A stretch of 64,000 nt of DNA, taken from positions 4,550,571 through 4,614,570 of the forward strand of contig CAIIXF020000011.1 in NCBI GenBank assembly GCA_903813345.2, in the 5' to 3' direction. Every line of letters starts with the position of its first letter. Within the stretch, counting starts at the first letter, position 1. Of this stretch, positions 18,501 to 51,748 are shown in pieces. The translations under genes and the position numbers were made by a program. Below the pieces are notes generated by a model. The model was not told where the DNA came from and did not search any database. It saw nothing but the letters and a program-made list of their open reading frames with translations. The DNA is from Owenia fusiformis. Its lineage: Eukaryota; Annelida; Polychaeta; Sabellida; Oweniidae.

Positions 18501-21500
18501 AACCATAGTTTTTTCTAATATCTTTGTCATTCTTAGAAATAACTCCCTGATATTTTACACATTTGTACATCATTCAATTTCCTACCAACCTACCATATTT
18601 CATGACCATCGGACTGATAGTCACAATATTACTGCATTTTAAACAACATGCCCAAGATGGACACTTACGGGCTGTATGTTATTCAAATGAACTCCATTTC
18701 GATGCACTGGTAAACTCTAACAATTATGTATTCTTGGGGAGCCAAGCACTTGGTGAAGTAGTGGAGGTACCTTCACACATATGCACAGTTTAGTGTGTTC
18801 TCAGAAGATACAGTCCTTTACCTTTGATGATATCAACGGATTTGCAATAACTGTCAACATCAAACTCTATTTTGTGATCCCCATGGAGTTCTTGGGGACT
18901 TTAGGTGAACCCAGGGGGGTTGATAAGCAACAACAATGGTTCCAACAAGACAGAACCATACCCCATACAGCCAATAAATGCACAATAATGCCTTTGGGAC
19001 CACTTCAATAACCACATTATCAGCAGTACAACAGACAATGAATGGGCACCCCATAGCCCAGATATGGCCCCATTTAAACTTTACCATTATGAAAGAGTGT
19101 AGGGTAATAACACCAGAAAGACATTTGACCTCAAAATAAAGATCATATGTGTCGTTCAGGCCATACTTGCTGAAGAATGCAGTTATGTCATTGACAGGTT
19201 TGGAAAATGTGTGCAGGTTTGCCTACAGCACGATATTGGAAAACTGGGGCACCTTGTTTAAAGTGCTGTAATGTTGCGACTATCAGTCCATTGTTCATGA
19301 AATAACACAGTCTAGCATGAAATTGAATGATGTACATGTGTGCCAAATATCAGGGCAAAATTTCAAAAGATGACAAAGCTATGAGGAAAAGTTAGAGTTG
19401 GCATTTTTTTACTAACCTGTATTTGACCGACATTTTCAAGCTTGACCCACTCTTTCGTTTGAACTGAGTCATGTGACCCAAACACTGTCGAGGTGACCAC
19501 CAGTGCTGAGTATCCTACATGACCTCATTGTCACATCTTTATCTTTAATTCATTGTGCTTAAGGCATTTAACATAGTAAATGACTTTGCCGAGACAACTT
19601 CTTCGCATTGTATACAAATCATTTAACCTGTGCATCTAATTTTATTGTTTAGAAGATGTTTAAAAACATTATATATTTGCAAGTACGAATGTATGCAGAT
19701 AAGAGTCTCAAATTTAATCCCCAGTTGAGATTTCAACGAATTTTGTTTTCAAGCATTTCTTGATCATATGATCAACAGTTCATTTGGATCAAGTAAATGT
19801 TTATATAGTAGCCTATCACAATTTCTTTGAGTCAATAGATTTAGATAGAACATACAAGGATTCAATTCAAACCATAAACTTGGTTTTATTGAAATAAGAT
19901 GGGTTCAGTTAAATTAATTTCCCATGTCACCAGATGTGAAGATGGAATTTATGTGGATGGACACTCCAAAGAATCCTTTGGGCATACGGAGGTATCCAAT
20001 GGACATACAAAAGAATCCAAAGAACACCGCAATGAAGGTTTTGATGTGGAAATGAATGACATCAAACTCGACAACACTAAGACTGAAGAGGATGCTGATG
20101 ATTCTGAAAATAAAAAGTCCAAGGAAGAAGAATCGATGGAAGACTCAAGAAAAACAAAAAGGATGTCTAAAAAGCTATATTACTACAGAATTGCAAAGAC
20201 ATTGCTTATTATCATCTCTTGGGTCGTCAATGTAAGTTGGATTTTGAAGATATACCATTGCTAAATCAAGTCAATAGAATTCTCATTCAAATCATTCTCA
20301 ATGAAGAAATAAAATTTATGAAGATTTGTCCTAATTTTGTTGATAAAATTGCCACTTAAGCTTCCATTATCTATGACAAGTGAAAATGACAAATGGAAGT
20401 TGCTGAAAGACAAAGCAGATTTAAACAAATTATATTTTCAATCATTCAGGGTATGTTATTGTGCATCCGTTTTCCCACAATGCCTGATCTGCACGATCGA
20501 CTGGGTGTGAACTACGAGGAGCTCTCCAGAGCACTGATAGGACGTGACATAGGCTGGGCTATGGGATCCCTCATTGCTGGCATCACATATGACAGATTCC
20601 AGAGCACATGGGACTTGCAGCTAGCTGTGGGTTTCTTTATTGAAGCCCTAGCAGTGGGGATTAAACCATGGTGCAATGGTTTGGTAGTACTTGGTTTGTC
20701 CTATTGGGCTGAAGGCTTGGCACATGGACTTTATGGACTAGGTATGATACTAGTCTCTTTTCTGAATAGATTTTTGTATGCTAGACCATTGTTAGGTTTA
20801 AAGTTCCCCATGATTGATTGTTTCTTTGAATATTCCTTTTCAATTTATCTATTTTAGTACTGTATATATTATTTTTCATTAGTGATTACATTTTTGATAT
20901 ATTGAAATTCTATACATTGATCCGGGTGTAACATGCAGTTATAGGGAAAACATACCCCTGCACCAATGCATTCGATGCACTTCGGTTGGACAGCCAGAGA
21001 ATTGCTCCACTGATTGCCTGCCCTATCTCTCTTGGTGTGTGAATATATATCTTGTGATATAACATGTTTGTTTTACTCATTTTCAGTTGGGAATGCAATG
21101 ATGATTGCCTTATGGGGAAAACATACCCCTTCACCAATGCATTCGATGCACTTTGGTTGGAAGATGGGAGCATTTTTGGCTCCAATGATCGCATATCCAT
21201 TCCTCTCTGGGCGTATAGAGGTTCCCATATTGGTCAACTCGACAATGAACAACACAACAGAAGGGACGATTGTAAATGGAACTAGACTTATATTAACCAA
21301 GTCAGAGATTATCTACCCTTACATGATCACAGGCAGTCTTGGAATTCTGGCTTCACTTGTCTATCTCGGGTTTTTCCTTGCGCCACGTCCTGAGGGTATG
21401 AGATACACCAACACAGCGAAGAGTAGACAACTGAAAAAATTCCTGTCACCCGCATCGTGTGCTGGTGGTAACTTAAGATTTGGTACACTGATGATGATCT

Positions 21501-24500
21501 GTCTTACCTCTTATTACTTCTTTGCGGACACATTAGGCAATGCCTTTGGCTCTTTCCACACCGCCGTTGCAACGAAAACATTAAATATGACGAAACAGGA
21601 AGCTGCTCTCATAAACAGTGCATCAAGTGGAACTGCCCTCGCGAAACATTTCCTGATGATCCTTCTCGCAAAGTGCATCCCGATGCCTGTGCTAGTCTTC
21701 AGCCATATACATGGTATTTTAGCAGTAAGCATTGCTGCGTTTTTCTATGTCTTAAACAACATACTAGGATTCTGGATCTTGAGTTGTGCGTTTCGTTTCT
21801 TCAGCGCTGCATTTTGGGCCGGTGGCATGTCTTGGGCAGAGAACTACATTGACATCACTGGTGCAGCTATCATGCTTTGGGATATAGGTGCAGGGGCAGG
21901 AGGCGTGTTTACATACCTCGGTGGCTATCTGTTCAGCAACCATGGAGTTGGCGCTATCCTATGGCTTGATCTATCTGGTTCAATTGTAATGTGTCTACTG
22001 TTGTACATTACACAATTCATCATGTCTCTACATGGACATAAGAGGAGGAAAGACTAATTCAATTTCTCTGATTAAAAAGTGATCACTCACACAGGATAAG
22101 CTATAATTGAGAACCTGTGCCATTACTTGCAAAGAAGTTTAAAGAAATATTCCATTATTTTCTGCATGAAAATAATGAATCCGCTCATAAATATTTTGCG
22201 AAATTGCCAAGCTAATTTACATAGAGGCTTAACTGGTAACAGGCTATAAGAGAATGTTCATTATCATCTACAGTTATCTTCCCAGCATTTAAGCAAAAAG
22301 TTACCACATTTTGTTGAAAAAACTTGTTGAATATGTTGAAAATCTGTTTACACCCTGTCAAAAATGATATATTTTGACCAAAATGTTTACAATTAAGATT
22401 GAGAATATCATTTGGAAAAACTTGAACAAAAAACTGATATAGTGCCATTCAGCTCATGAGCTCCAAGTTTGACCAATCATAAAAGGCCAAACTTGAGCTA
22501 TATATAATACTACATATACTAATGTTCTACATGAATACATGTAGACATTAACATATTTTAACTCTATTACTGGGGCAAAAAGCACTATAATACTGGCAGA
22601 TTTTTGAAAATTGCCATATATGGTACCTCTGAGATAATATATATAGTATATACATGGGCATAAATATATAAAGGTTATTTGATACAGGATATATCTGAGG
22701 AAAATTCAATATATCTACCCGAGGAACCTTAGGGAACGAGGGTTGATATATTGTATATACCATGGGATATAACCTGTATCAAAAATTGAGCATTCAATAA
22801 CTGATTTATCCCATACTTAGTAGTAATTAGAGAATTAAATATGCATTGAATGTTAGGGAACCCTATTGTAGTAATTACAAACGATAGTTACAATCAAAAC
22901 ATTAAATAATATTTATCTCAATTTAAAGTCCTCAACAATTTTTGTTTTTAAAACTCAACAGGTTTTAACATTTAACAGTGTATGAAATTAATATTTATCA
23001 AATAGAGCCAAATTCAAAAAAGCACCGAAAGAAATTCCTGGGGATTGCTGATGAGCGCAGCGGGAGATATTTATATCAACAGCTCACCTCAGATATCGCT
23101 TATATCCCCGCATGTTATTTATAGGATATCCTATGATTTTGAGGAATATCATTTTTATCTACGAGGTGATATTGATATCTGCACGAGAGAGCGAAGCGAA
23201 CAAGTGCATATATCAATATCACCGAGTAGATTAAAATGATATTCTGAAAAAAATCATAGGATGTTCTTATTATCCTACACTTACAAGGAGTGTACTAAAT
23301 GTATAATATCATTGCAAAATGAATTTCAGGCCAAATAGAGTCAATTTGGTGGGAAATCAACAAGCGGAGTATATCGTCACAATATCCTCCGCATATTGGG
23401 TTTTCCGGAGTATATCGTCACGATATCCTCCGCCCGGAGTATATCGTGACGATATCCTCCGGATATTCATTTTGCCCATAAATATCAAATTTATTTTTTA
23501 ATGTTATTATACATTTAGTACACTAAGTGTAGGATAATTACCTATAACACTACTAAGTATGGGATAAATAGTGTTATATATCATTTTAAAGCATATGATA
23601 AACTCTTTCAGAATGAATAAGTTTTTAAGTCCCATTTTATAAGTTGTCATAAGTAACAAGATTCCAAAAACTACATTGGGTTTGTGCTTGGATGTGATAT
23701 CATGTCCTTCTTAGTCAACGTATGTGCTTTATGTTAATCAGCACATTTATTAATGCTCCTCAAGAATATAATTCCATTGAGTCGATGAATCACTTATTGC
23801 TTATTATATGCAAACCTAAATATGATTAAACAATGGGTTCAATTTCTCAAAATTTGGATAAAGCCCAGCCCATTTCTAGCCAACCTTTTTATAAATAAAA
23901 ACACTCCCAGATTGAAGACAAATACAATATATCTATTTGAATCAAGACAACCCGACAAGTATACTTGAATTAAAGAAGGCTTTTTATTCATTTATTTTTA
24001 CCAAAATCTTGGTATCTTGAATCTTGTACTTGTAAGAGATTTTATAAATGCGTCTTATTTATAAACAATAAACAAAACCACCTGGACTACCATTTAAACA
24101 ATTCAAAGAACTTACTGTTGTATTGCTGGATGTGACAATCTGTTTTGATGGTGTAAGTTGTACAAGAGTAGCAGGTTGAACATTGTAAGGGGAGGGCTTG
24201 CTTGGGGACATCATGTAAACACTAGCTCCTGTGAAATAGAATATGTATGACATATAAGTGTTTATATTGCTATTTGCAGATTGTCAGCTGCACAAGAATA
24301 GCAGGTTGAACATTGTAAGGAGAGGGCTTGCTTAGGGACATCATGTAAACACTAGCTCCTGTGAAATAGAATATGTATGACATATAAGTGTTTATATTGC
24401 TATTTGCAGATTGTCAGCTGCACAAGAGTAGCAGGTTGAACATTGTAAGGAGAGGGCTTGCTTGGGGACATCATGTAAACACTAGCTCCTGTGAAATAGA

Positions 24501-27500
24501 ATATGTATGACATATAAGTGTTTATATTGCTATTTGCAGATTGTCAGCTGCACAAGAATAGCAGGTTGAACATTGTAAGGAGAGGGCTTGCTTAGGGACA
24601 TCATGTAAACACTAGCTCCTGTGAAATAGAATATGTATGACATATAAGTGTTTATATTGCTATTTGCAGATTGTCAGCTGCACAAGAGTAGCAGGTTGAA
24701 CATTGTAAGGAGAGGGCTTGCTTGGGGACATCATGTAAACACTAGCTCCTATGAAATAGAATATGTATGACATATAAGTGTTTATATTGCTATTTGTAGA
24801 GTGTCAGCTGCACAAGAGTAGCAGGTATTATGAAGAGTATGGAAAAAACTAGCAAAAATTAGAAAAAAAATACTCAGAGTTAAGAAATTCAGACTTGATA
24901 TCTAGCCAATATCCCAGAATTTCATCAGAACTTACCTCCCAGTTTAGGTGCAATTTTCCTTGGTGTTCTTGAAGTTGCAGGACATGTGGCTGTGACAAGC
25001 CCAAGATCAGATGCTTGTTTAGCAGAGATAGTACTAGCGCCATCTAAACTTTCCGTCTTCAGTGATTTCTTTTTTACAGCACCTTGATTATAAATTCGTC
25101 TGAATTACTTAATTTTCAAATGATTGAAAAATTAACTGTGGCATTTTAACTACAAAATGTAACCAAGCTATTCTTCATCATCTCCAAAAATCAGAGATGG
25201 AGAAAGACAAAGTATATGAAATTTCCAATAATTTTATGTGTTTTCATTTGTTATATATGCATGTTATCTGCAATGCTAATGAAACCCTCAATCGTGTCTA
25301 ATAAATGAAATATTACCTTTGTTTTTAGCACCAATTGTCTTCTTTGGTAAACTCAGAGTAGCTTTTAATTTAGGTTTTTTCTTAGTAGTACCTTTCACTG
25401 ACTTCTTCCCAGTAGCATTCCCTGATTTAGTTTGCAGTTCTTTTACTATCTGAATATCACTTGCACATTCTATTTCCAAAGAATCATTAATTTCATTTTC
25501 ATCCATTGATGAATTGATTTTACGATTTGAAGTTTTTGCAGGGATTCTTGTGCTGCCAGCTGTTGTACATAAGGGCATAGCAGCGCCATCTAGTAGATGA
25601 ATTTTGGCACTTTGATTGTTGTTATTTTGAGGTAGTTCAGAGCTGCTATTCAAGCTGGTGGAAGGGTTGTTTTCAGAGGGTTCAATTTGTGTGTCGGGAA
25701 CACATGGAGAAAGGATATTCTCCATTTTGTGAACTTCATGCTGAATGTTCTGCAGATTCCTTGTACTGTGCATCTCGGGAGACATGTGCAACTCTGAAAT
25801 ATCCACAAATATGAAATATATTGATTCAGGTTTCTTAAACTGCCAATCTTAAGGGACATATGCACCTCTGGAATGACAAAATGTTTTGCTCTAAACAGGC
25901 TCCATCATTTTACTTTTGTCACATGACATGATATTGACCAATCAGTGAGTGTGGAAATTGACAGTGTTAATCTTTGATTATCTGGTTGCACAAAAAGTAA
26001 CAAAGTGTAAAGAATTGTTACTAATGCCAAATGATGAGGGTAAGAAAGTGTTACTGATACAAAATATTTATGGTAAGGAATTGTTACTGATGACTAGGGG
26101 TGAGACGACAACCCGATGAGTCGAGGACACGCGGGTTTGGGGCTTCGAGTCGAGTCGAATCGAGTCGAAGTTGATGAATCGAATCATTTTAGAGTTGAGA
26201 AAAAAATTCGAAAAAATAAAAAAATTCAGAAAAATACTGTCAATATGCATGTTTTTACTCGATATTGCATTGAATATATAAGTTTCAATGACTTGGATAT
26301 GCTTGTATTAAATTATTATATTGTATGTACACATAAATGAAAGAATATATGTAATAAAATCAGAATAAACTTACGACGAATTGTGTTTGTTTATATTTCC
26401 GGCTTTCCACCATTGACGCATTAAAAATACGAACGGTCAAAAGCGATGTTGTTTGCACTTTATCTGACTCGAAACGGATTCGAAACTCGAATCGTCATTT
26501 TCTGACTCGAATCGGATTCGACTCGAATCGGATTTTTTCGACTCGTCTCACCCCTACTGATGACAAATGTTGAGGGTAAGAAAGTGTTACTGATGCCAAA
26601 TGTTGAGGGTGAGGAAATGTTACTGATGCCAAATGTTGAGGGTGAGGAAATGTAACTGATGTCAAATGTTGAGGGTAAGGAATTGTTTTTGATGCCAAAT
26701 GCTGAGGTTAATGAAATGTTACCCATGCCAAATGTTGAGGGTAAGGAATTGATACTGATGCCAAATGTTGAGGGTAAGGAAATGTTACTGATGCCAAATG
26801 TTGAGGGTAAGGAAATGTTACTGATGCCAAATGTTGATGGAAAGGTATTGTTACTGATGCCAAATGTTGAGGGTAAGGAATTGATACTGATGCCAAATAA
26901 TGAGGGTAAGAAATTGTTACTGATGCAAAATGTTGAGGAGGGTTACAAAAAATAGTGACTATAACAATATATATGTCACTACTTTTCAGTGTTGACATAA
27001 AAATTGTTCAAAGAAAAGTAACTTGCTTTCATTTAAGTGAACTTGTTGTTGTCTTTGTGGAGTTGCACTCCTATTTGAATGCACCTGCTGAAATTGTTGT
27101 TGTTGTTGTTGTGGAGTTGTTGCACTGTTTGAGTGCATTTGCTGATGCTGTAGGGTCAGACTCTTCTTACTTGCCGATTTACTGAGATATTCCTTCTCTA
27201 TGAAGTCATCCTTGTCTAAAATGAAAGAACAATTCTCATGGATGGATTGGCTCTTCGTTTTAGCAGTTATCACCCTGGACAAAGTGATAACTTAACCAAA
27301 ATCTAGGTGGAATCGAGTTAGAAAAAGACAATCCTACCAAAAATAATTAAATTCAGTACCAAAAATATTGAAAGGTGTTATTTGTGTAGCTAATAAAGGA
27401 GAATTATGCAAAGGTCTAAATAGTATGTGAATTTACGCAAATTTCATTAATTTGTGGATTATGTTAACTTCTCCTATTTTCCCCTCTGTTGTATGCAATA

Positions 27501-30500
27501 AATGATCCCAAAACAAACAAGGGGATTTATGAAAAGTATGTAAAGGACGATTCTCGGTTTGGAGAACGAAGTTCATCAATCTAAATGAGCATTATCCCTG
27601 CTTCGGACAAATTTGATTTTTTTACATAATATAGATTTGAATGTCTTCTTTTGAATAGTCATAATTTAATCTGGGTAATATTTCTAGATTTTTCGCAAAA
27701 AAATATTAGCGCAGTACACTGATGAACTTCTTTCCCAAAATCGAGACTTATATTTTATTGAATCGGTCTATTTGAGCATTATCCCTGCTTCAGACCAATT
27801 TGTTATTTTTACATCTTGTAGATTTAAATGTCCTCTTTTGAATATTCATAGTTTAATTTGGGTAATATTTCTATATTTTTCATGAAAAACTTTTTAGCCC
27901 AGGAGGCTGTTCTCCAAACCGAGAATCGTCCTTTCTGCAATTTTCATTGATGAATTTTGTTGATTTTTCTCAGAGAGAGACTGCCATTTCCTTATTTTGT
28001 CACAGGGGCTAAATCAATCATGGTACTATAAAACCATGGTCAGGGTTCTCACCAGAATTTTTTTTAGACTTTTTCAGATTTCTAGACCGGATTTTGAATT
28101 ACAAGCATTACATACTGCGCATGGAAAGATTTGTCGGTAGAAATTTTGTTAGTAATTTGCTACTTACCAACTTTGAAGAGGTCAAACAGTGCATCAAAGG
28201 CTGGGTCAGTCTGTGTCATTGTAACAATATCTTTTATGGCGGTTTCATCCATTGTATTCTCCTGGAATAAAAAATAAAAATAACAGCATGCCCAAAACCT
28301 AATCAGATCAGATTCATGCCAGCCAATCCAGGTGTCAAGACACCCTGGCACAAAAAAGACAATATAGCGCTTTGAAAAGTGTGATTATTACTATCTTTAA
28401 ACTTGAATCCTTTTGGAAAATCATCTGAATCACTGGACCCCCAGAGTTTTATTATGGACAGAGTGGCGATAAATTGAATCACCAAATTGAAATGGGCAGA
28501 AAGTTAATTAGATTAAGTACAATTCTTCCTCCTGGTCAGAGCAGTGATTAAAAACTTACTTCCAAAAACACCGTACTGATTACTGAGTTTATTATGTGTG
28601 GAGAGAATGAACTGATATAACATAGCCAATCTGCAACAGTACCGTACAGTACCGTGAACACTGTACAACACTAAACTGCAACGGTACCGTACTCTTAATG
28701 TACCATACGGTACTGTGATTTAAGATTGCGGATTGGGGGTGAAAGAAATGAAAAGTCATAAACAAAATGTGACCACCTGGAAAAAGTGTAATAATTGTTT
28801 CAGAAGCAGACACTGAACTCGGGTCACAAAACAAATGAAGGCTTTAATAATATGTCACCACCGTCCCGAATAATTAAAACCGCCACTTTAAATTCAACTC
28901 ACCTCAATTCCTAAAATAGCCTCAAGGGATCGCTCATGGGGAACTGGGCCTGGCTCAAGGTCACTCACTGGAGCAGTCAACGTCGCTTGTCCACTCCTAA
29001 CACGTTTTTTAACAGCTGGTGAGCTTACTTTTTTCTGCACTCCAGTTTTTTGAGCTTTGGGGGGTACATGAATGGCACTGCTAGCTTTGTTGATGTTTTC
29101 AGCAAGTTTGTTGTGAATGTCGGGATTGTTTAGAAGATCTTGAATAATATTCTGCAAAAGAAAAAGAAAATCTATATTCTAAAAAGTTGAGTTCACCATT
29201 TAGTAGTTTAGTAGTAGTTTAACTGTTAGTATAATGTAAAACAATCAAAATTCCACAGAGTCATATTTATAATGATAATGAAGTATCCCCATTTTGAGGA
29301 ATTTAGTGACTGTGTTCATGTTAGGATTTAAAATCACAAAATCCACAAAATTTACTTTTAAAATAATAAATTCACTAGTTATATTCAAAAAGACACATAA
29401 TTGAGAAATTTCAATGTTTTATCAAAAATAGCAGTGTGACAAACAATTGAGTAGCTCTTTTCCTGGAATTTCAATGAAAAGATTTATGAGGGCCTCACCC
29501 AACTGACAGCCCATCCACCCCGACAGCTAAAGATATAGGCATACCTTTTAGTATGAGGCAATGATCACATAACACTTTGAAAATGAAAAGTGTGATAAAC
29601 AGATAATGAAGGTTATCAAGTGTATTAAACAACAACTATAATTAAAATAAATAATAAGAAGTTAATAATTAAACCAATAAAAATGTAACAAAAACATTGT
29701 TCACTCATAGTTAATAAGTCATGAGGTCATAATACATTTATAAATATCTGACTGTACATCAGGTGATGTTAAATATCAAAATGGCGACAGCAATGGAGGA
29801 ACATGTTAAAGAGACACTGCAATGTAAGGTGTGTTATGAGACATTAACAGACCCTAGAACACTACCTTGTTTGCACACATACTGTCTTAACTGTCTACAT
29901 AAACTTGAGAAGAAAAGACAAGGGCAGAGACTAAGTCTAACCTGCCCAGAATGCCGACAAATTCACATTATTCCTAAAGGGGGAATAGCTCAATATAAGG
30001 TCAACTATACATCGAGTACTTTAGTTTGTTTGTTCCAAACCATGGATATTGATGACGAACCACAGTGTACAATATGTATTGAGAAACACCAGAAGGATAT
30101 TGCTGCTGTGGCTAAATGTGTCCAATGCAACAAACAATTATGTAAACAATGCCATCATTATCATGATATATTTTCACAAGGCCATACCGTACTTGATCTG
30201 ACGGGGGATGCAACTCAAAATATGGAGAGTGCGTTAGGTGCTGTTCATCAGCGTATAATATTTTGTGATATACATAAGGCTTCTCCAATGGAAATATACT
30301 GTAAAGAAGATGATTGTGTTGTTTGCGCTACTTGTTATGCAATTAATCACTCTAACCATGAGTGCCTAGACATCCATCAAGCTGCAGAGAGCAATGTCAA
30401 ATATATTGATGAACTTCTCAAGAAAGGTGAAATGTTGATAAATCACTGTGAAAACAGAATACAAAACGTACATGCCAAAAACGATATGAGGAAAAAAGAA

Positions 30501-33500
30501 ACAGACTATGCTGCCCAATTACTGAACAATGATGCAAATGTAGCTATCCAAGCGATTCGAGATAATTACAAAAAGAACATTGACTTACTGGCTCAGATAA
30601 AAGCCAAAAATGCCTTGAATGTAGATGTATGTGTAAAACATCACCGAATGCAAAAGGCAAGCACAGAGAGCACAATGAGCCAGTTAAGCCTTTTGAAACA
30701 ACATGGACATGCAATACAACTGGCTGGCATGGCTAAAGACTTAGATGATAAGTTGCAAGAATGGTCTGATCCTCTAAAGGTCTTTCCAGCCATAACATTC
30801 AAAATGCACAGAGGAAATGTGTCTGATGATGGAATTGATTTTGGTAGAGTAGAAATTAAGGTGAGAGACAAAGAACAGAAAGAAAAGCAAGTTCAACTTA
30901 AAACAATTAAAACAACAACACCCATGGTACTAAGCAGATTTGCAATGGTTATTTGTGGTCTAACTGTTGAAGGTTTAGCTGTGACCAAAAATGGTAATCT
31001 TGTTGCTCATGGTAATGAAACTCAAGCCAGCTTGTATAACAAAGACCTTATACATGTGGGAACATTTGGTAGTGATAGTAACACCAATGTTACAACAAAA
31101 GGAGAGGAAATTTTTTTAACTGGCGAATCTGATAAAGTCTACATTTACAATCTGGAAGGTCGATACAAAAGGGATTTAAATTTACCAACAATACAAAAGT
31201 GCGGAGCTATAGCTGTCAACTCAAATGGTAACCTTTTCATTTGTGACACTGGCACAAACAATTTCTTTTATGTCAACAGAATAACTGGAGAGATCATGAC
31301 TCATATAGAGTTCAGGATGTTATCATTCAACATCAAGATAGCTATCAACAGCAAAGATGAAGTTATTGTGTCTGACTTCAATAAATGCTGTGTGATAGGC
31401 ATTTCTTCAGATTTGGAAAGTGTACTGTTTGAATATGGCACCAAGGGTTATGCAAATAATCAGCTTGACGGTCCCTGTGGACTATGTACTGACAGAGCAG
31501 ACAATATCATAGTGGCTGATACCAAAAACAGTAGGGTTCACCTTCTAAACCAGGAAGGCAAATTAATCAGGTACATCCTGACAAGAAAAGATGGATTAAA
31601 GAATCCTGTGGCTGTGACTGTTGATAATGAAGGACATGTACTTGTAGGTGATTATAAAGGCTTTATCTGGATTGTTAAATATGCACAGTAACTTTTGTGT
31701 GTAGTAAATGGTTTATTCTGTAATATGTTAATCCTTTCTTATCATTATTTGAATTATCATGAAGAAACATAAAAATCAAAGCTTGTCAGAAAAATATATC
31801 AAAAGTTTAGCCTATATTATTAAGAAATTATCTCCTTTGATCTTGTAAGATTGATAGTTCATCACGATCATAGAAGGTATGAGAAATGTAGACTTTTGCT
31901 TAAAAGATTAATTGAGTAATTAATGACAGAGGAGAGCTCCTTTTCCCTCAGGCATCAGCATATTAAATATCAAAGATTATGTGTTTTTTTATGAAAAATG
32001 GCAGCCATTTTAAAATTCAGTGGCCATTTTGTAATTCAGCAGCCATCTTGAAAAGCCCTTCTCAAAGCATCTTTTGTCCCTAAGCATCAGCATAGAAAAT
32101 CTGAAAGTCGTTAACTGGTTATCAGTGATTACATTTTTTACGAAAACTGAGTTGAATTGAGTGGTCATATTGAGAATTCCTTCTTGAGCAGAAGTCCTAC
32201 ACCCATAAGGCGTTAGCATATAAAATGAAATCAAATCCGTCAACAGATATTTGAGTTATCGCCTGGACACACAAACGGACGAACGAATGGACGGAGTAAA
32301 CGAGTAGACAAGATCTAACAGACAAGATTTTAAGACTATTATGAATCATCCCTGAAAATTTGAATTTGATATATCAAAGTATTATCGCTTGCTGACTTTT
32401 CTTAAGATACTCAAAATGGCTGCCATGACTGAACCAGCATGTCAAAAACCTCACCAGATGTAAAAAAGAAGTGAGTACAGAAGATATTAGAGTTTTAAAA
32501 GCATTTGTGAAGCTGTTTTTCTTAAAGTAACAGACAAGAATTTTGGCATTTGACTAAAAAATGGCAGACAGGAAATAGGTATCAAGTTGAAATATTTCTA
32601 CTGCATCTGTATGCTGAAAATATGAAGGTGATATCTGGATAATTTTGGAGAAAACTGTGGGATGTCCATATGTATGTAAGGGCAGATAGACATACAACCA
32701 CACATGCCTAGGCCTTTCAATATGGAGACATAAAAAGTCAAAATCTACTGAGCTTACAGGCATATCAATGAGATCTTCAACAGGTGGTCGACTTGTCTTT
32801 TCACTAGTTGTCTCTGGTCGCCCTGTAGGGGGTCTTAGCTCATCAAGGGTTGCTGTTGGAAAACTACGTCTTTTAGGAGCATGACTGGAATGATAAAAAC
32901 AAAAAAATATTTCATGAATTATTTTACAAAAAATGTACAAAAGTGCCCCAATCAATCGATTTTGGTACAAAGCTTCCTATGCTCAAATTACCAAGGCTTC
33001 AGCTTTATTCAACATCATGTAATGTGAAAATTTTCAAGGGTATGCACTAATAGACATACAATTATAAACGAGCTTAACCAATGAACTTAAAATGTTACCT
33101 CTTTCTTTTAGGAGTCCTCCGCAATGTTGAGAGCCTGTCCTTATTTGGAGTGTTCAATTCTGACGTGAATGCTGTGGAGCAACTGTCTGCCGGGCTCATC
33201 TCGCCGAACATAGCTAAAAATGAAAATAAAAAAAATCATTACAAAGCATTATCATGACTTGTCACCACCTGATTACAAACATAGCTAAAAATAAAAAATC
33301 ATTACAAAGCATTATCATGGCTTGTCACCACCTGATTACAAACATAGCTAAAAATCATTACAAAGCATTATCATGACTTGTCACCACCTGATTACTAACA
33401 TAGCTAAAAATAAAAATCATTACAAAGCATTATCATGACTTGTCACCACCTGATTACAAAAATGTAACACTATTATTCAGTTTATTCTTTATTTCGACCA

Positions 33501-40178: not shown

Positions 40179-43100
40179 ATGAATCTCAGCTTTAGGACAG
40201 AAGCAAGACATGGTTATGCAGTAGAATATTCTCCATTCTTCCCTCAAAGATTGGCCACTGCAACTTCTCAGCATTTTGGCATAGCAGGTTTGTTTATCTT
40301 TCTCACAATCATTTCCAGGCAATACATGTAGATCTAGATTGATATGTTTCATTTCAATCATTGCTTAGTAATTATCAGACTCTGGAGTTCATTTTTGGTA
40401 CGGTCGTAACTTCTGATTTTCTACTTTTTGATAAACAAAGACTTGCAACAAAATTGAAGTTACTACGGTCCAAAAAGACCCCTGTATCGCAGGGTATTTT
40501 ATTCTTTGAAACCCATTGGGTTTTCTTTGAGCAGTCTGTGGGCTTAGAAGTTAGATGTCGACCAAACTGATATTGTATTTTACAGTACATGTATATGCTA
40601 TTATCCCAGCTCTGTGTTTAGCATCAGGCTTCGTTGATATTAGAGGGCATTATGTCATATGAGAATAGGTTTACCTTCCAATAAATGTGACGAAATGGAT
40701 TGCTCTCTTGGTTGACTCTGATCATTACACCTCAAAATTGGTCATCATTGGAATCTTTCCAATGATCATTTTGAGTGATTTTGGATGTTCCTCCACAATT
40801 TAATCAGTCATTTGTTCATTTGAAGGTTGCGGGACACTCATAGTTCTAGATATCACTCCGAAGGGACTTGTGCTCGCTCGGGCCCTTGACTGGAATGATG
40901 GCCTCTTTGATGTCACTTGGAGTGAAAATAACGAGAACATTTTAGTAACAGGAAGTGGAGACGGAAGTATTCAAGTATGGGATATTGCTCAACCAAAGGT
41001 AGAGTACGAGTCAGAGTACATATTGTAGTTTTTTGGGTCAATATGCAATATTTTGTTCACAAGCAATTTCTGAGTGTTAGTATTTTTCATGCATAGCTAT
41101 AGTTACATGTATTTCCTTCCACATTATTTATGATTATGTAAACTGTAACCATATGATCAATACCAGGGTTTGTGTAAAAAACAGGGTAGCTGGGTGACTG
41201 GGTACCTAACGTTCCTAGCAGGGTTACCAACTTTCAAAGTTGCACATTTTCCCCTAATATACATGATGTGCAAAAAAACGTTCATATTTGTTATTTCGAT
41301 ACAACGCAATATCATGGCCGTAAATTGAACAAAAGAAATTAAACAAATGTGGACGAATATGCACACGCGTATATATTGAAACAGCAATTGCCGTTTATCC
41401 GTCATTTGATGTAAGATGACGTGAAATGCTTGGTTTATTGCCTACAAGTGAGTGATTGACAGAATGTTGATGATTGTTTCATACGATGGCAATTTCTACG
41501 AGATATTAAACAAATCTGGAAGATTTACGCATGTATGTTGAAATGTTAATACTTGAACGCTTTTCCAATTAACGTACAATGTACATGTAAGACGTTGGTT
41601 GCTTGTTTTATTGCCTGAGTGATTGACAGGGTATCGATTGGTTGGTTGGTATTGGTAGATTCATTAGTTTGTTTCATGGTTATTTGGTGAACCAGGTTAC
41701 CCGTACACCCGTTTTTTTACACAAACCCATCAATACCATCTGTACTGAGATATACGTCACAATATGCTGATATGATTTCTCCCTCAATATGCAATATTGC
41801 TATATCTAGTTCCAAAATTTAACACCATTATTTATAATGTTTTTTATTTCCAGCCTGCCCATATACAGGTATACAAATTATTTATAGTAGTTTCTTGTTT
41901 CCAGCCTGCTCCTATACAAGTGTACAAAGAACATAGTAAAGAGGTTTACAGTGTTGATTGGAGTGTAACGAGAAATACCAACCTATTGCTCAGTGGCTCT
42001 TGGGATGGACAAATAAAATTGGTAATGATGTATCCTGTATCAGGCTTATTATGAAATAACTATTTTAGTAAAGAACACTTCTTCAAGCTACCTCATAATT
42101 AAAATAATCAGCCCCAAGTTTTCATATAGATGTCCGTGTGATATTCACTAGATATTCTCGAGCATATATTTCTTCTGGATAAATCCCATATCCTGAGTTC
42201 ACATAAAGTAACCTCTCTATACGCTTGTTTCAGTGGGATATTCACCAACCCAAGTCTCTGAACACATTCCAGAGACATGAACATTTAGCATACAGTGCAA
42301 TGTTGTATTCCCTCTGAATAAATCTCATATCCTGACTTCACATGAAGTAACCTATATACACTTGTTTCAGTGGGATATTCACCAGCCCAAGTCTCTTAAC
42401 ACATTCCAAGGGCATGAACATTTAGTCTACAGTGCAATATGGTCTCCGCATATAACTGGCTGCTTTGCTTCAGCATCAGGTATTTATGTCCCCTTTTGCA
42501 TTCACTTAAAAGATAGCTTCATCTACACTGTTTAAATTTAAGAGAAGTCTTTGAACTCATGGAGCTTATCATTGCCAGAAGGACAATTTCCATATATGGT
42601 CATTTCCTCTGACGTTAATATTGACCAGCATTAAAATATTATTGAAACATGTTTTTCCTGCTTGCTGATTGGTTGAGAAAATGCAAGTTCACAGTAAAAT
42701 CTGGTAGGTGGAATGCTTCAGTGAGTAAAACACCTTTTTTAAATGAAACAGGTTTTCTGTATAGTCCCATTATCCATTTGGCCAAAGTTGCTACATCCTC
42801 CGATCACAGGGCTTCAAAATCCAGAATATATTCTTTCTTTTTACCCTCTGCAATAAGCAGTTAGCAACTCGCAATCTGATTGTCTGACGCAACACTGCGA
42901 CAGAAATCATGTATAAGTCATTGCGCATAATTAGATCATGTGATTCAGTTTAATTGGGCGCTTTCAAATTGGTAACGGCAGGGGTAAGAAGGAGGTACAG
43001 ATTCTGGACACCTGAGGCCTCATTATCATCTGGTCGCAACGCAAAATCGCATGCGAATCGCATCGCAAGACATCGCAACGCAACTATTTCCCAAAAATGT

Positions 43101-46100
43101 TATTATCATTCCATCGCATCGCAAGACTGACGCAAAGTTATCGATTTTCTGATCGCAACTAAACAAAAAGTTGCGACGACGTTTACCCTGTCGCAAATCA
43201 AATCGCGAATCTAGTTCATCTTTGAGCGTTATTTTATCTATGTTAATGGATATTTTGTGGTGTTTTATATCGGTCATTTCACTACCTGTTAAGTATTAAT
43301 CAATAGTATCGAAGAAATTGTTCAATTTTATTTATTTAGTATGATTAAAATATACATTTAATTGAGCCTGTAAATCCTTAAAAATCACGTTTGTTTCTAA
43401 ATATTGCGAACGCATCACATACTGTATACGTCTTAGATTGGTGCCTGCAATATTTCGTGCTCTTTGGAGCATAGGATTTTCGCCAATTAAATATTTATCT
43501 AGCTAATAAAGCTTGTTTGGTGAATTAATCTTGCCACTACTACACTAATGTTCTGAGTATTCCTAGTGTATATGTACCTCACCTACATCGTCTGCAAAAG
43601 TACAAGAACACCAAGATGTTTCATTTCATTCTGGATCACCACAATCGTATTGGCCGAAGAGTATTTCGAGATAGGTTTAACCCACTCGATTCACTAAATG
43701 ACATCGAGATGCTCCAGAGATACAGAATGCCGAGAGCATTGTTAATAGAGGTTATAAACCTTTTTGAAGACGAACTGACACCAAAGAATAGGAACAATCA
43801 TTTCATTCCGGGGTTTCTAATTAAAAATGTTGATCACTATCAGATTCCTGGCAACTGGACAACTCCAAATGTCAAATTCTTCCTGCATTGGAACATGGAT
43901 TTGTTAAAACAATGGTTGAACTCCCGTGGTATCTTTGTACAGTATTGGAGGTGCTCGTTTTTCTGAATGATCTCTACCATGTTCCCAGATATAGATTAAA
44001 TATTAAAGACATTTTATTTGATCGAGTTTGAATATGAATAGAAACGTTGTTAATTCTACATAATAGAATAAATGCATCACTGCAAATTACTAAGTTGTTA
44101 AATTTAATAGTAGTCAGGAATATTTAGGTGAAAATATTTCAAAAATATATAGAAGCAATTTTAAGGTGGATTTCAAAACTTCATACCATTCTTTTGAAAA
44201 CCTGAAGTGGCACCAAGCGATCCATTGACTTTTTCACCAAAAATCCAAGATGGCCGCCACGATGTATCGAAAAATCATAAAAATTGACTAAAGTTGTAAT
44301 TTAATAAGTCAAAATGGTTGTATACTGATCAAACATGACTTATAATAGTACCTATTAGGTGTTCATATGCAGTTAAAGTCACTGGATCATTTTTGTATGA
44401 AAACTGGAGTCCCACAAGGCTCAATTTTATGTCCGCTACTTTTTTTGTCTAATGACTTGCATTGACCATGGCATTTGCACATAGCAGTGGATACTTATCC
44501 ATTTTTGAAATGTAAGCACCCAGGACCACATTTCACCATGCACCCATACTTGACCAATGCTTGGCATGCCTTGGCTGCTTGAGGAAGGGATGTCAATAGT
44601 GGCACCAGGAGAGACATGTCATACTTCCAGCCCCATGTTGTGAACTCCAATACCAATTTTAGATGGAGATTGTACAGTTGCCCCCAAACAATACCACCTT
44701 GGTTAGCAAGTTCTTAAGATTTTCTGAGCAAGGCCTCCTTTTGTTGGTTGTATTCTGTCAATGACTGTATGGCCGCCACAGAACATTAGTCTTCGTGCTG
44801 CATTGATATCTATCTGGTTGCTGGTTCGATCATATAATAGAACAGTAAAACAGTTTAGGGACTGAATGGTCTGAATTTACAAAACCAGGTTTGTTGTAAG
44901 CATTTGTGCCACTCTTTTGTAGAAAAGCTGGAGTAACTTCCTTGAACACATTCCATAGCTTGAAGGCAGATCCTTTGCTATGGCCAAAGAATGATGCAGT
45001 TAATATAATTTAATATCTGTAATATTTGAGAGATTCGAAGGCAATCCAGATTGACACTTATTGGGCCTTAATTATTATTATTATATCTTGGTTACCGCCA
45101 TATTTGGCGAGCAATAGCTCATTGGTATATTCTGTACTTTACATATTTTACACTCGAAGACAGAGCCAGAAACCCCTCCTTGGAGGAGCCCTGTGTTCTT
45201 TTGTGTGCACAGGTACACAGACATACAGGTACACACCACAGCCTTTTATACGAGTCGTGAACCACTCAGTCAAACACCCAGAATTACATGATGCACAAAC
45301 AAACTTGTCTGAACCGGGAATCGAACCCGGGGCCAAGCGATATTGGTAACCTTGACTCTGCCACTGAGCCATAGCGGGTGGACTAATGCTGCAGCCATGG
45401 CAAGAACAACTACATCAGTATCTCCACTTCTGATTATGAAGTCTTTTTTCCCTCTGAGGTCATCTGTTTTACATGAACAAAGAGTCTAGTGTCAACTTCT
45501 TCATGAGTACAAGGTTCAATCATTGCTGTATCAGGCAAGTGAGGAAATCACTGAACAGATTCCACAATAGTAGTTATTATTTGCTTGTCATTTACATCAA
45601 CCTCAAAAATAGAGTTGGCCAGGAATGCTAACAGCTCAGTCTTGTTCTGGCCATTTCTTAGAAAGCCTAGCCAATTCTTGGGCATCGGATTCTCTGCATA
45701 AACCATCCAGTGCCACGATGAATCCTTGTCAGGGACTTCCCACTGTTTTGTTGGTAGACATCCCAGATAGCATCTAATCTTGAAACACCTTCCATAGGCT
45801 GCCATAACTTGGGATGAGACATTGGTAGCATATTCTTGGAAGTTGGTAGCCACACCAGGACGCATCACATAGACCAGAAGGGTGCCAACTATTAAAATTG
45901 CATCTGCAGGTTTTTTCCAATACTTCAGATCCATCTGGCTTAGCTTCTCAACATTTAAGTAAGTCTGCTTCTGTTGTAGGTCTCATGGCTCCATACTTAG
46001 CTAGGGATGGCCTGAACTCATGTTTTTCATGTTTGAAAAACTCAGACATGTCAACGTGTCTTGATTGGCATCCCGTCATCCCTAGCTAAGCACAGAGCCA

Positions 46101-49100
46101 TGTGACCTATGACAGACTTACTTAAATGTCTAGAAACTGGTCCTCTCATCCCAAGTTAAAGAGAGAATCAGATCTAGCGAGCAGCCTAACAAAAAATTGT
46201 TTCAATTTTAGAATATTTCTGGCTTATGTCATTCCTTTTCATGTCTATTTTCTAAAAATCCTAAAAATACACACTTTATTTCAGGAAAACTAAAGATTTT
46301 TACAATAATCTATTATTGTTCTATTAGAATGGTTACCATTCTTATTATTTGGGAGAATTTAAACATTTTTCACGAATTTTTGCACTTGGAATCCATTATA
46401 ACTTCACCAATTTATAACATATCGTGAATCTTTTGGGAGATATTGTATTTGAGATAGTAATGAATAGATTGGTAGGTCAATTGCACATGTTGCTTGTAAT
46501 TTTGTCACCTCCTATAGATCAGATTCTGCCTTTAAGGTAGCTTATGGAAGGTGTTCCTAGATGTTGTCTGGAATGTTTACCTACAAAACAGTGAGAAGTC
46601 CTTAACAAGGATTCATCGTGGCACTGGTGCTAGAAGGATGATTTATGCAGAGAATGCGATGCCTAAGAATTGCCCAGCTTTTCTAACAATCAACGGAACA
46701 AGACTAGGCTGTTTGCATTCCTGGCCAACTCTATGTCTGAGTTTGATGTTAATGACAAGCAAATGATAACTTCTATTGGAGAATCTATTCAGTGCTTTCC
46801 TCAATTGCCAGATACAGCAATGATTGGACCTTGCACTCATGAAGAAACTGACACAAGACTCTTTGTTCATATAAAACATGACCTCAGAGGGTAAAAGACT
46901 TCACAATCAGAAGTTGAGATACTGATGTACTTGCTCTTACCATGGCTGCAGCATTTAAGGGCGTAATAAGTGTCAATCTGGATTGTCTTCAGACCTCTCA
47001 AAAATTACAGATATTTAATTATATTATATTAGCTTCACCATTCTTTGGCCATAGCAAAGAATACCACCAACAAAAGGAGGCCTTGCTCAGAAAATCTTAA
47101 GAACTTGCTAACCAAGGTGGTATTGTTTGGGGGCAACTGTACAATCTCCATCTAAAATTGGTATAGGAGTTCACAACATGGGGCTGGAAGTATGACATGT
47201 CTCTACTGGTGCCACTATTGACATCCCTTCCTCAAGCAGCCAAGGCATGCCAAGCATTGGTAAAGTATGGGTGCAAGGTGAAATGTGGTCCTGGGTGCAC
47301 ACATTACAAAAATGGATAAGTATCCACTGCTATGTGCAAATGCCATGGTCAATGCTAATCATTAGACAAAAAAAGTAGCGGACATAAAATTGAGCCTTGT
47401 GGGACTCCAGTTTTCATACAAAAATGATCCAATGAATTTAAATGCATATGAACAACTTATAGGTACTATTATTAGTCATGTTTGATCAGTATACCACTAT
47501 TTTGACTTATTAAATTACAACTTTAGTCAATTTTTATGATTTTTCGATACACTGTGGCGGCCATCTTGGATTTTTGGTGAAAAAGTCAATGGATTGCTTG
47601 GTGCCACTTCAGGTTCTCAAAAGGATAGTATGAAGTTTTGAAATCCACTTTAAGATTGCTTCTATATATTTTTGAAATATTCTGTGAACTTATCTCCTAT
47701 TCAAACCCGACTATAGTTTAAAAATGAAAAAGCACCATTTTCTTTTTTACATAGACATGTACTCTGTATCTGTTGTTCAAGCATCACCCATCGCATTGAA
47801 GTTGACTCGTCGGAAAGAGTTAGATTTTCAATTTGAAATGAGAGTTCGTCTCAAAATTGTAGATTTTTAGATTTTCACATTTTCATCCCGACCCTGATTC
47901 AAACATGATTTGCTTTGATCACAATGCAAAAGACGTGTTTCATATTTTGTTCCAAAGGAAAATAAATGCAATACACTGGAGACATATTTAAACATATATC
48001 GATATGGAACCCACAACTTGCAATTTTCTTGCATGTGTATAAAATGTAAAATATACACCACCAAATAGAAAACTCATTAGCTGTTATCGTTTCATTGTCT
48101 GTTGAAAAATTATGTTGACAGATTTTAGATAGAAGCATTGTAGAACACATACAACAACGACCAAAAGTTCATTTTATTTCAGTTAGTTTCAGTAACATGA
48201 CAACTTCCCGTTTTAACAGTTATTTATTTTCAGTGATGTGTGACTTACATAACGTTTTTTCTAGTCCTCATTTCCACACCAAGTGAACTTATTTTTTCAG
48301 TTACCCTTGCCCAGCAACTATCTGTGACTGTATTGTTATTTGACAGCTAACTGGTGCCAAAAGAATATTTGCATCCTTCTCAATGAGAGATACAAATAAT
48401 TCTTGTTCATCATTTGTCCAATTCCTTGCCCTCGACATGTTTCTTCGACTACCGTCTGTTCAATGTAAATCGATTTGCATTTTGGCGCACTTATGTCTTG
48501 CACAAGTGTAATGCATGCGCAACCGATCAAATCATATCAATTATTGGATTTCTATCAATTTCAATCAATCAATGTCAAAAACTAGCGCCAGTGTCCTTTT
48601 AAATTTCGCGCCAAAATGCACTCTAGACTTGCGATCGCAACTTACGTTTTAATTGTTTTGCGATTGCTTTGCGTCTGCGATTGCGCTCAATTGATAATAT
48701 CACGCATCGCATGCGTTACGAATTGCGATCGCAATCGCATCGCAGACGCAACGCAACTATTTGCGACCAGATGATAATGAGGCCTCAGCTCAGGAGGATG
48801 AAGTTACTATGAAATTGACCTCCATGCATGGGATACCTCCCTCCAAGATGAAACACTATTTTGAGGCAGTAAAGGTGCTCCACATAATATGCAAATTTAT
48901 ATCAAGTACTAATAAGAATGATATTTAACAACAAACAAAATGATTGTTATCTTAAATTCAGGAGACCGAACTTTAAGAGTATGGGACGTGAAGAAGCCCT
49001 ATATGGCCCAGGTGACCATTCCTGCTCATGATTCTGAAATCCTCACTTGTGATTGGTCCAAATATGACCAGGTAGGTCACATGACTCGCTATAAGTTCTT

Positions 49101-51748
49101 TGATGTTATTCCATTTTTGCTTGATTTTGATGATGGGTTCGTTCTTAATTTAAATTTGACAAATAAAAAAAGTTCTCTTACTAAAATGTGTTTGTTGTGT
49201 CAGTTTTTACTTGTTTTTGATGCAGATTGTCTGAAGAGAATGGCCAGCATTTTCTCTTTGTAATAACTTGTTTAAGATAATAAAGTATTTATTTCAAGCT
49301 GCCAAATTAAATAGGCTTCAATAATATTCCAAAATAACCCAAAAACAATGTAGTTTATTGTTCATTCATTTGAATTATTCAATAAAATGTAATTATAGAT
49401 TTAATTGTTTTATTTCAGCATCTGATGATAACTGGTGCAGTAGATTGTTCAATACGTGGTTGGGATCTCCGGCAACCAAAACAACATGTATTTGAACTGA
49501 AAGGACATCAGTATGCTGTTAGGAGAGCTAAGGTAAAATGCAATCTCTTTTGATTGTATGTTGTATGTATATTTATTTTGTCACCACCACAAAAATGTTG
49601 GAGACTACAACAATATGTCACTATTTGTGGTATTGTTGTTGTTTGGTGTTCGCCCTTTTGTATCTGTAACAAATGGCAGGTGATGACATTTTGCATGTTC
49701 ATGCCTTAAATGTACATTATGTATGTATTTTTGGATGATAGTGTGAAAACTAAATGGTCAACATAAAAATCCCACTTTCCTAAATATACCACTGAAAAAA
49801 TTTGTTTCTAGATAGAGTGAAATGTCAGCCTATAGTAAATATATTTCACTTACCAGTATCTTAAAAATTATGTAAGAAGAGTTTTGTTACTGTTTCAGTG
49901 CTCACCGTTTGTTGCTAGTCAAATTGCCAGTTGTAGCTATGATTTTACAGTCAGGTAAGAACTTAATATAATAGGGGAGGTTAAGCGTACATAGAACTTG
50001 GATGGAGATATGTAGAATAAAGGTGCTCTAGGGATTAGTCCCCCCCCTTTGTAATGTTTATTTGCAGTATTGAGTATTTAAGGTACATGGAGAGTTGTAT
50101 TTAGGTCCCTGGAAAAAACAGTTGAGAGGGGGACTGTAAATCTGTTAAAGGACGATTCTCGGTTTGGAGAACGAAGTTCATCAATCTAAATGAGCATTAT
50201 CCCTGCTTCGGAAAAATTTGATTTTTTTACATAATATAGATTTGAATGTCTTCTTTTGAATAGTCATACATTAATTTGGGTAATATTTCTAGATTTTTCG
50301 CAAAAAATATTAGTGCAGTACACTGACAACTTCTTTCCCCAAATCGAGACTTGTATTTTATTGAATCGGTCTAATTGAGCGTTATCCCTGCTTCGGACCA
50401 ATTTTTATTATTAGAATCGCCCTTTGTCATGCTACTATATTTCATGCTTTTGGCAAGTTTGGGGAAATTTGCAAAACATAATAGTCGTGACATTCCAGTG
50501 CTAAACTGTGGTGTACCATTTTCAGTGTAACAGATTGGTAAATCAATTTTTTTGAAATATCCCAAAATATCATTTTGTGCGTTCTCACTCTTTTGAGAAA
50601 CAACATCATGAGATGTTATTTTATTGTAATATTGTATTTTATTGTAACATTGTATTTTATTGTAATATTGTATTTTATTGCAGATTATGGGACTTCAAGC
50701 AGCCCCATCCTATTGAGACCATAGAACACCACACAGAGTTTATTTGTGGACTTGATTGGAACTTACACATTCCAGGGCAGGTAGGTGTTGGATATGATAT
50801 CCTCTTGAAGGATATCATTCATATCGTATCCCCAACCTCAAAAATTTTTTGGGTTTGAAAATATTAATAATTATATATTATTCAGTCGGTGACATCCTCC
50901 GATCACAGGGCTTCAAACTCCAGAATATATTCTTTATTTTTACCCCTGCAACAGAAATCATGTGTAAGTCATTGCGCATACTTAGATAACGTGATTCAGT
51001 TAAATCGGGCGCTTCCAAATTGGTTATAGCAGGAGGAAGAAGGAGGTATGGATTCTGGACACCTGCTTAGGAGGATGGTCGGTGAACACCCAGAAAAATC
51101 CATAATTACTTTTTCTGCCAAAGTTCAATTTCTTGATATCCCATTGACACCCCTTGACCCTTCCTTAACACCTCTGATTATGGGCATTTAATTTTGTCCC
51201 AGCAAAGTATTGTATCCAAGTGCCCACTAAAAGCTAGTGCTTCTGTGTGGGTAGGCTCCACAAAGTCTTGTTAGTAAAATTCCATAAATCCTCACTGCAT
51301 GTCCGTTAACCCAAAATTTTTACAGATGGGAGAGCCAACCTTCTAAGCAGGTGTCCAGAATCTGTACTTTCTTCTTCCCCCTGCTATAACCAATTTGAAA
51401 GCGCCCGATTAAACTGAATCATGTGATCTAATTATGCGCTGATGACGTATTCAAGATTGCTGTCGCATAGTTGCGACAGCGAACCAAATTGCAAGTTCTT
51501 AATCAGGGAAATGCTAACTGCTTATAGCTGGGGGTAAAAAGAAAGAAAATATTCTGGATTTTGAAGCCCTGTGATCGGAGGATGGTGAGAGCAGACTAGT
51601 GCGAACATATGATAGGGGTTTGGGCATGCTGGGTAAAGTGCGATATTTATCACTGTGTATCGTTCTATATTTGCAGATCGCTGACTGTTCTTGGGATGAA
51701 CAGGTTAGAGTGTACTCTCCACAAAGTATAGCAAACACAAGGACATAA
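40179..51748 (+). CDS. PEX7: PEX7, peroxisomal targeting signal 2 receptor (9 exons)
   Basis: Exons 40179-40287, 40826-40998, 41905-42021, 42371-42479, 48962-49071, 49419-49532, 49899-49954, 50684-50780 and 51677-51748 join in phase to 957 nt, 318 residues (human 323). Recognisable PEX7 text includes [79 protein letters not shown] and the terminal ADCSWDE. It forms a WD40 propeller of about six to seven blades. In the known pathway it binds PTS2 cargo in the cytosol and, with PEX5L, PEX13 and PEX14, delivers it to peroxisomes. Start chosen by alignment with the conserved [10 protein letters not shown] region. Introns 2 and 3 carry decayed duplicates of the next exon's start; intron 4 holds a nest of mobile elements. 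Confidence 0.95.
41838..41880 (+). pseudogene. PEX7: Duplicate of PEX7 exon 3 acceptor and first codons
   Basis: TTATTTCCAGCCTGCCCATA precedes the real TTGTTTCCAGCCTGCTCCTA by 51 bp. It repeats the acceptor and the codons for PAxIQVYK, then runs into an in-frame continuation to the real exon with no stop, so using it would insert 17 residues. Confidence 0.8.
42174..42358 (+). pseudogene. PEX7: Duplicate of PEX7 exon 4 acceptor region and 5' half
   Basis: A tandem unit of about 135 bp copies the intron end (TCCTGACTTCACATGAAGTA-like) and the first ~65 nt of exon 4 ([18 protein letters not shown]). It then diverges and meets a stop (LYSL then TGA). The real exon 4 follows at 42371. Confidence 0.85.
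42794..43011 (+). mobile_element. CATCCTCCG long-TIR repeat, arm split by Harbinger
   Basis: The text CATCCTCCGATCACAGGGCT through GATTCTGGACACCTG matches the arms of the element at 50893-51584. It breaks at 43011 where the Harbinger TIR begins and resumes as CTCAGGAGGATG at 48789, showing insertion of the larger element into this repeat. Confidence 0.8.
43616..43966 (+). pseudogene. Harbinger transposase N-terminal relic
   Basis: The 116-residue frame has [19 protein letters not shown] and [20 protein letters not shown], matching the N-terminal helical part of HARBI1-like transposases (RVFRDRxNPLDxxxD). The catalytic DDE part is absent from this frame, so it is a truncated relic. Confidence 0.75.
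45074..45383 (-). mobile_element. tRNA-derived SINE
   Basis: Read on the minus strand, the head has an A box (TGGCTCAGTGGC, 45360-45371) and a B box (GGTTCGATTCCC, 45316-45327) spaced as in a tRNA gene, then a 200-bp unrelated body and an ATT-repeat tail. The homologous site in the right palindrome arm (near 46960) lacks it, giving the empty site CTTATTACGCCCTTAAATG. Confidence 0.85.
46160..46531. mobile_element. TTAA-flanked MITE, copy C
   Basis: A 372-bp copy in the opposite orientation to A and B, flanked by TTAA at 46156-46159 and 46532-46535. The matching place in the left palindrome arm reads CAAGTTATGGCAG without the element, so the empty site is visible. Confidence 0.8.
48301..48438 (-). 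pseudogene. Harbinger Myb/SANT-like protein relic
   Basis: A 45-residue frame, [20 protein letters not shown] onward, resembles the Myb/SANT-like DNA-binding protein that PIF/Harbinger elements encode beside the transposase. It stops early, so only the first helices remain. Confidence 0.6.
50147..50425. mobile_element. TIR element (AAAGGACGATTCTCGG), copy 2
   Basis: The left TIR and first block match the 27542-27934 element almost base for base. The interior is shorter and the right TIR is diverged (AGAATCGCCCTTT). It lies in PEX7 intron 7. Confidence 0.75.
50617..50683 (+). repeat. PEX7: 18-bp repeat forming the PEX7 exon 8 acceptor tract
   Basis: TTGTATTTTATTGTAATA recurs three to four times and ends directly in TATTTTATTGCAG, the acceptor of exon 8 at 50684. 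The pyrimidine-rich tract is therefore repeated. Confidence 0.8.
50893..51584. mobile_element. CATCCTCCG long-TIR element, complete copy
   Basis: The arms of about 180 and 245 bp (CATCCTCCGATCACAGGGCT to GGATTCTGGACACCTGCTTA, and mirror) flank about 270 bp of unique interior. GTGA lies on both outer flanks. No transposase is present. It lies in PEX7 intron 8. Confidence 0.75.

Follow-up and report, generated by a model that had tools for sequence, protein, structure and literature searches.

The closest described counterparts of the structures analysed here are the "mirages" of amphioxus, tandem minisatellite-like copies of intron/exon boundaries that were found in Adh3, in the globin genes BflGb6 and BflGb9 and in PGBD5 (PMC3087553; PMC3902484). 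According to the consulted sections of these two papers, mirage units are 10-160 bp long, many of them carry AG/GT signals and either end of an exon can be affected. RT-PCR is said there to suggest regular splicing, and mirages have been proposed as a source of new introns (PMC3087553; PMC3902484). A further case comes from potato, in which, as far as the consulted text goes, duplication of the 3' side of an intron together with the start of the exon made a new intron (PMC4974935). For an annelid, the consulted part of a report on earthworm metallothionein describes minisatellites in introns and exon-4 duplications that are absent from the transcript (PMC12783039). Our literature searches returned no report of boundary minisatellites in annelids among the matches listed. 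Here, we analysed 64,000 nucleotides of the annelid Owenia fusiformis (contig CAIIXF020000011.1, positions 4,550,571 to 4,614,570), referred to as the window. The boundary copies found in it are real, ordinary in kind and already known by name, as mirages. The part that could be new is a possible asymmetry between acceptors and donors.

Results

Gene models in the window

Exons in the window were placed with our own gene finder, for which long open frames served as training set, and were kept only after read-through of the exons. The same finder over-predicted in the 230 kb downstream; its output was left unused there and no exons were counted from that stretch. In total, the window models contain 26 acceptors and 25 donors, all acceptors with AG and all donors with GT. 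Besides transporter genes with three coding exons each, the gene models are:

40179..51748, plus strand: PEX7 gene, 9 exons, a clean 318-aa WD40 protein when read through
24116..39767, minus strand: NPAT gene, 13 exons placed, position of the exon 10 donor tentative
24116..24228, minus strand: NPAT exon 13 proper, acceptor side 24228, read from the sequence

PEX7 reads through without needing any new intron, and its protein matches the peroxisomal targeting signal 2 receptor in PDB (3w15, E 5e-51), which ranks third among the best 60 of 220 matches, behind two Tako8 sequences that we take to be designed propellers. The second gene is presumably NPAT, as named in the original prediction, and the domain evidence for it is a sub-threshold LisH match (E 0.044). 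The family match of the transporters is a weak, sub-threshold MFS hit, seen in transporter 1 only. Transporter exon 1 contains 21-bp coding repeats, with 8.5 copies in transporter copy 1 (T1; 7521-7698), 3 in T2 (13197-13260) and 3 in T3 (19957-20020). A stop-free frame of 652 aa (29733-31688, plus strand) is located within an NPAT intron on the opposite strand; it encodes RING, B-box and NHL domains and is TRIM/NHL-like.

Tandem copies of acceptors in NPAT and PEX7

The original prediction held that at least six acceptors carry extra upstream copies or repeats of the acceptor region. Direct reading of the six listed sites and Tandem Repeats Finder (TRF) bear this out for four of them, the acceptors of NPAT exons 13 and 6 and of PEX7 exons 3 and 4, while PEX7 exon 8 and transporter copy 3 turned out to be of a different kind. 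The arrays in NPAT and PEX7 are:

24162..24826, minus strand: NPAT exon 13 acceptor array (TRF, 130-bp unit, 5.1 copies)
33207..33460, minus strand: NPAT exon 6 acceptor array (unit of about 63 bp; TRF array 33231-33460, 3.8 copies; the start at 33207 includes the true acceptor)
41827..41928, plus strand: PEX7 exon 3 acceptor duplication (TRF, 51 bp, 2 copies)
42167..42438, plus strand: PEX7 exon 4 acceptor duplication (TRF, 137 bp, 2 copies)
50617..50680, plus strand: PEX7 exon 8 pre-acceptor repeat (TRF, 18 bp, 3.6 copies; the exon starts at 50684)

At the four confirmed acceptors the tandem copies span the acceptor and 7-77 exon bases, and at several acceptors the copied stretch takes in at least 13 intron bases besides this first part of the exon. 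The NPAT exon 13 array holds five acceptors, four of which are decoys at -130, -260, -390 and -520, and every unit contains TTCA(C/T)AG, continued across the boundary by GAGCTAG, and about 77 exon bases. Similarity among its copies is 91-100%; no difference separates copies 2 and 4, while the others differ, as expected of an array that can gain more than one unit at a time. The NPAT exon 6 array has four acceptors (three decoys) with TTTTTAG before and CTATGT after the boundary, and just 7 exon bases are copied. For PEX7 exon 3 the decoy exon start lies at 41854 and the true one at 41905, and use of the decoy would add 17 open in-frame codons. For PEX7 exon 4 the respective positions are 42234 and 42371, and the decoy brings a stop. 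These copies are real and not due to chance, since none of 2850 simulated intron-like positions reaches a copy score (defined below) of 16, while the four acceptors score 18.5, 24, 39 and 60. At PEX7 exon 8 the repeat is confined to the tract before the acceptor and the acceptor itself is single.

Transporter copy 3 and its paralogues

The element in the third transporter copy copies the interior of exon 3 from its 24th base onwards, without the acceptor:

20939..20990, plus strand: T3 copy of bases 24-75 of exon 3, placed in the preceding intron
21110..21161, plus strand: source of this copy within exon 3, which starts at 21087

Both stretches are 94% identical over 52 bp, and the AG sites of the intronic copy are weak (PWM 1.1 and 1.9). 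The paralogue T4, about 123 kb away (C11, about 4,448,576, minus strand; boundary moved by 3 bases after inspection), carries complete copies of the acceptor at two positions, -181 and -340, and an additional decayed copy upstream. Since T4 carries complete acceptor copies, the T3 element may be the relic of a longer array. A search with transporter 3 as query revealed none of these copies in T1, T2 and T5, and copy number differs among the paralogues T1-T5. Arrays of this kind could in principle be stretches that were falsely repeated in the assembly. This is a most improbable explanation, because the copies differ from each other, in NPAT to the extent given above and in the two PEX7 boundary arrays with TRF matches of 84% and 87%, and because the paralogues carry different arrays.

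Boundary copies in a sample of myosin exons

Outside the window, a sample of myosin exons was drawn from profile matches (23 of 92 matches) that were picked by exon density, blind to repeats. This choice led to short introns and to a restricted search space for copies, at both exon ends alike. For these exons, and for three linker exons used below, profile matches and splice-site scores determined the boundaries. Among the 23 myosin exons we found one strong acceptor array (L057), one weak acceptor copy (L055) and one donor array (L059). L057 shows four acceptors in 61-bp steps, each with CAG followed across the boundary by GCCACATATG; the acceptor counted is the copy at -61, which leaves the tally unaffected. 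In L059 the donor reads AAT and, from the boundary on, GTAAGAGC, and three more GTAAGAGC copies follow within 370 bases. Both genes lie on chromosomes other than that of the window. Thus, boundary duplication extends beyond the window and affects both exon ends. The sample leaves out a tandem exon array at C9:37986-37994 kb. This region (C9:37986009-37994334, minus strand) has twelve tandem matches to myosin-head positions about 18-84, two of them with an internal stop, and resembles a series of alternative exons from a muscle-type myosin gene.

Repeat units and the tandem-array landscape

The units had been described as differing in length and sequence and therefore as not representing one element, and for the three units searched this description holds. 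Unit lengths range from 18 to 137 bp across the sites, and in a genome-wide search (498 Mb in 525 contigs, very common words skipped) the units of NPAT exon 13, NPAT exon 6 and PEX7 exon 4 matched their own loci only, indicating local duplications. A single element copied at all sites is ruled out for these three units. Altogether the window contains 40 merged arrays with a total of 7213 bases (11.3% of its length), and arrays make up 9.6% of the intron bases in the five genes. Large tandem arrays with a period of up to 448 bp are also located beyond the annotated genes (53430-54946 and 60452-62095). The 230 kb downstream of the window are rich in transposable elements, judged from a domain search of eight long open frames. 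Four of these encode a reverse transcriptase, one a DDE transposase and one a sulfotransferase, one has a sub-threshold Ty3 capsid match, and one is without match. The frames with reverse transcriptase domains (L025, L033, L018 and L020, all on C11) are retroelement frames, two of them long and uninterrupted.

Strength and consequences of the decoy acceptors

We examined 14 decoys, one at PEX7 exon 3, one at PEX7 exon 4, four at NPAT exon 13, three at NPAT exon 6, two in T4 and three in L057. According to PWM scores, ten of them are predicted to equal or exceed the true site in strength. Predicted values for decoy vs true site are 9.0 vs 8.2 at PEX7 exon 3, 6.3 vs 5.6 at PEX7 exon 4, 5.4-7.2 vs 7.2 at NPAT exon 13, 8.5 (each copy) vs 6.2 in T4 and 6.8-7.6 vs 6.8 in L057, while those at NPAT exon 6 are weaker (1.9-6.2 vs 7.9). 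Signals of such strength, together with the open codons that the PEX7 exon 3 decoy adds, would suit outer copies that function as alternative acceptors and either switch the protein off (by stop codons and nonsense-mediated decay) or extend it. However, 13 of the 14 decoys lead to a frame shift or a stop, for L057 provided that the exon starts in phase 0, and for T4 and NPAT exon 6 as read from the insert lengths alone, none of which is a multiple of 3. The 51-bp insertion at PEX7 exon 3 is the sole one with an open in-frame stretch. This pattern fits passengers and not used alternatives, and copies like those seen in T3 and T4 were not found in T1, T2 and T5, so that we consider a function of the outer copies very unlikely. 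Apart from the copies, PEX7 and the transporters have the look of intact genes, so splicing probably passes over the outer copies. It had been argued that either a shared mechanism or a tolerance of decoy acceptors is needed to explain an excess of copies. Of these two, tolerance can be retained, because decoys of full predicted strength have to be tolerated, and we infer it on these grounds; an excess that calls for a special acceptor mechanism did not emerge.

Acceptors, donors and intron interiors

Acceptors, donors and intron interiors were compared by a copy score, which needs no array caller and asks for a copy of the ±4 bases around a boundary within 600 bp of it. The set comprised the window exons and, from elsewhere, two transporter genes, 27 myosin exons and three linker exons (erythrocruorin linker domain PF16915, three matches on C6), in sum 59 acceptors and 57 donors. 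The linker family is not known outside annelids, and its presence speaks against amphioxus as the host; a search for the mitochondrial marker COX1 found no match. Left out of these counts were the L058 acceptor (PWM -1.9), the L029 and L030 donors (low score, probably last exons) and the donor of NPAT exon 10. At score 14, copies are found at 7/59 acceptors and 1/57 donors (Fisher P 0.06), at scores 16 and 18 at 6/59 and 1/57 (Fisher P 0.11). Outside the window, the counts are 3/33 vs 1/32 at score 14 and 2/33 vs 1/32 at score 16. In simulated sequence, 0.2% of the 2850 positions reach score 14. Random intron positions (n=3000, taken from window genes only and with the boundary arrays themselves included) have a copy within 600 bp in 9.8-12.7% of cases at scores 14-24, compared to 5-7 of the 59 acceptors. 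Hence, the equal density elsewhere that would speak against an acceptor bias is found on one side of the comparison: acceptors are on a par with random intron positions (12.7% at score 14), while donors lie below this rate (P 0.004-0.014). The acceptor rate is thus close to that of the intron interior and perhaps above that of donors.

When the 40 arrays of the window were shifted circularly, acceptors were covered in 3/26 cases vs 2.9 expected (P 0.59) and donors in 0/25 vs 2.8 expected (P 0.07), with P 0.07 for the difference between both. Within 25 bases of an array there are five acceptors and one donor. Fisher tests in the window yield P 0.11 for 4/26 vs 0/25 and P 0.051 for 5/26 vs 0/25. 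Compared with a random distribution of the 17 non-coding arrays over the five window genes, 4/26 acceptors are hit vs 1.8 expected (P 0.085) or, with a 5-base margin, 5/26 vs 1.9 expected (P 0.028). Without the by-eye extension of the NPAT exon 6 array there are three acceptors (P 0.26), or four with margin (P 0.10). For donors (0/25) P is 0.12-0.14, and for acceptor minus donor 0.003-0.05. In the NPAT-PEX7 block alone, 4 or 5 of 20 acceptors are struck (P 0.07 and 0.02). The placement tests and the window Fisher tests were all post hoc, and since acceptors were the reason for choosing the window, its P values flatter the acceptor claim. Thus, arrays at acceptors beyond chance placement are weakly supported and the acceptor bias over donors is at most suggestive.

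Two explanations take the bias at face value. According to the first, duplications form everywhere; those at donors are purged, as splicing is diverted by a second donor, and those at acceptors are nearly neutral. This selection asymmetry is possible, if rather unlikely. It would account for acceptors at the level of random intron and donors below it, and for the acceptor-donor difference under random placement. It has to be weighed against Fisher P values of 0.06-0.11 overall, the counts outside the window (3/33 vs 1/32), a window picked for its acceptors and the donor array at L059 with its three further GT copies. The second explanation assumes that mutation is specific to acceptors, with local duplication promoted at intron ends, either by the T-rich tract or by a transcription structure. 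The 18-bp array that lies wholly within the tract before PEX7 exon 8 would agree with this, as would the 4-5 acceptors struck where 1.8-1.9 were expected. Yet the acceptor rate equals that of random intron, the copied exon portion varies widely (7-77 bases) and a donor is struck too (L059), which makes such a mutation bias improbable. An acceptor-specific duplication mechanism is unnecessary for the present numbers.

Discussion

We consider it probable that the boundary copies of Owenia are ordinary minisatellite-like tandem duplications spanning intron/exon boundaries, that is mirages, in an array-rich genome in which they are tolerated and their outer copies are mostly silent. The duplications would originate from the general array-making process at work here, by slippage or unequal exchange. 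Exon definition is an established splicing principle, and the spliceosome would accordingly join to the copy that is attached to a whole exon and its donor. Boundary copies would then be kept because splicing still uses the copy on the whole exon, and the outer copies would stay mostly silent.

Some real asymmetry between acceptors and donors is possible. In its strongest form, with about one acceptor in ten carrying full-strength decoys and donors almost never, a permissive acceptor side and a purged donor side, it appears unlikely. If true, it would be an experiment of nature, on the scale of the genome, in the choice of the whole-exon copy by the spliceosome, and a standing pool for intron gain. 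Should the minisatellite reading hold genome-wide, boundary minisatellites would exist in a distant animal line and be no mere amphioxus oddity. It would also provide many natural duplicated splice sites at which the choice between two equal acceptors can be tested, and material on how tandem duplication feeds intron gain.

Among the known systems, intron gain by tandem duplication in potato (the AGGT model), as presented in the consulted text, shares with Owenia the duplication of the 3' side of an intron and the 5' side of an exon. In contrast to potato, no new intron is evident in Owenia and the copies look unused. Earthworm metallothionein has an annelid host in common with Owenia, as well as intronic minisatellites and exon copies, but the consulted part of that report does not describe its arrays as straddling a splice site (PMC12783039). 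Unlike the amphioxus mirages, the Owenia copies belong to an annelid and are known here from the sequence of one assembly. In the following respects, and as far as the consulted sections on mirages go, both systems are alike: the copies span the intron/exon boundary, in Owenia at the four window acceptors, in T4, in L057 and at the donor of L059; the units are local and unrelated between genes (in Owenia for the three units searched, with very common words skipped); and both 5' and 3' exon boundaries are affected, as the L059 donor and the acceptors illustrate.
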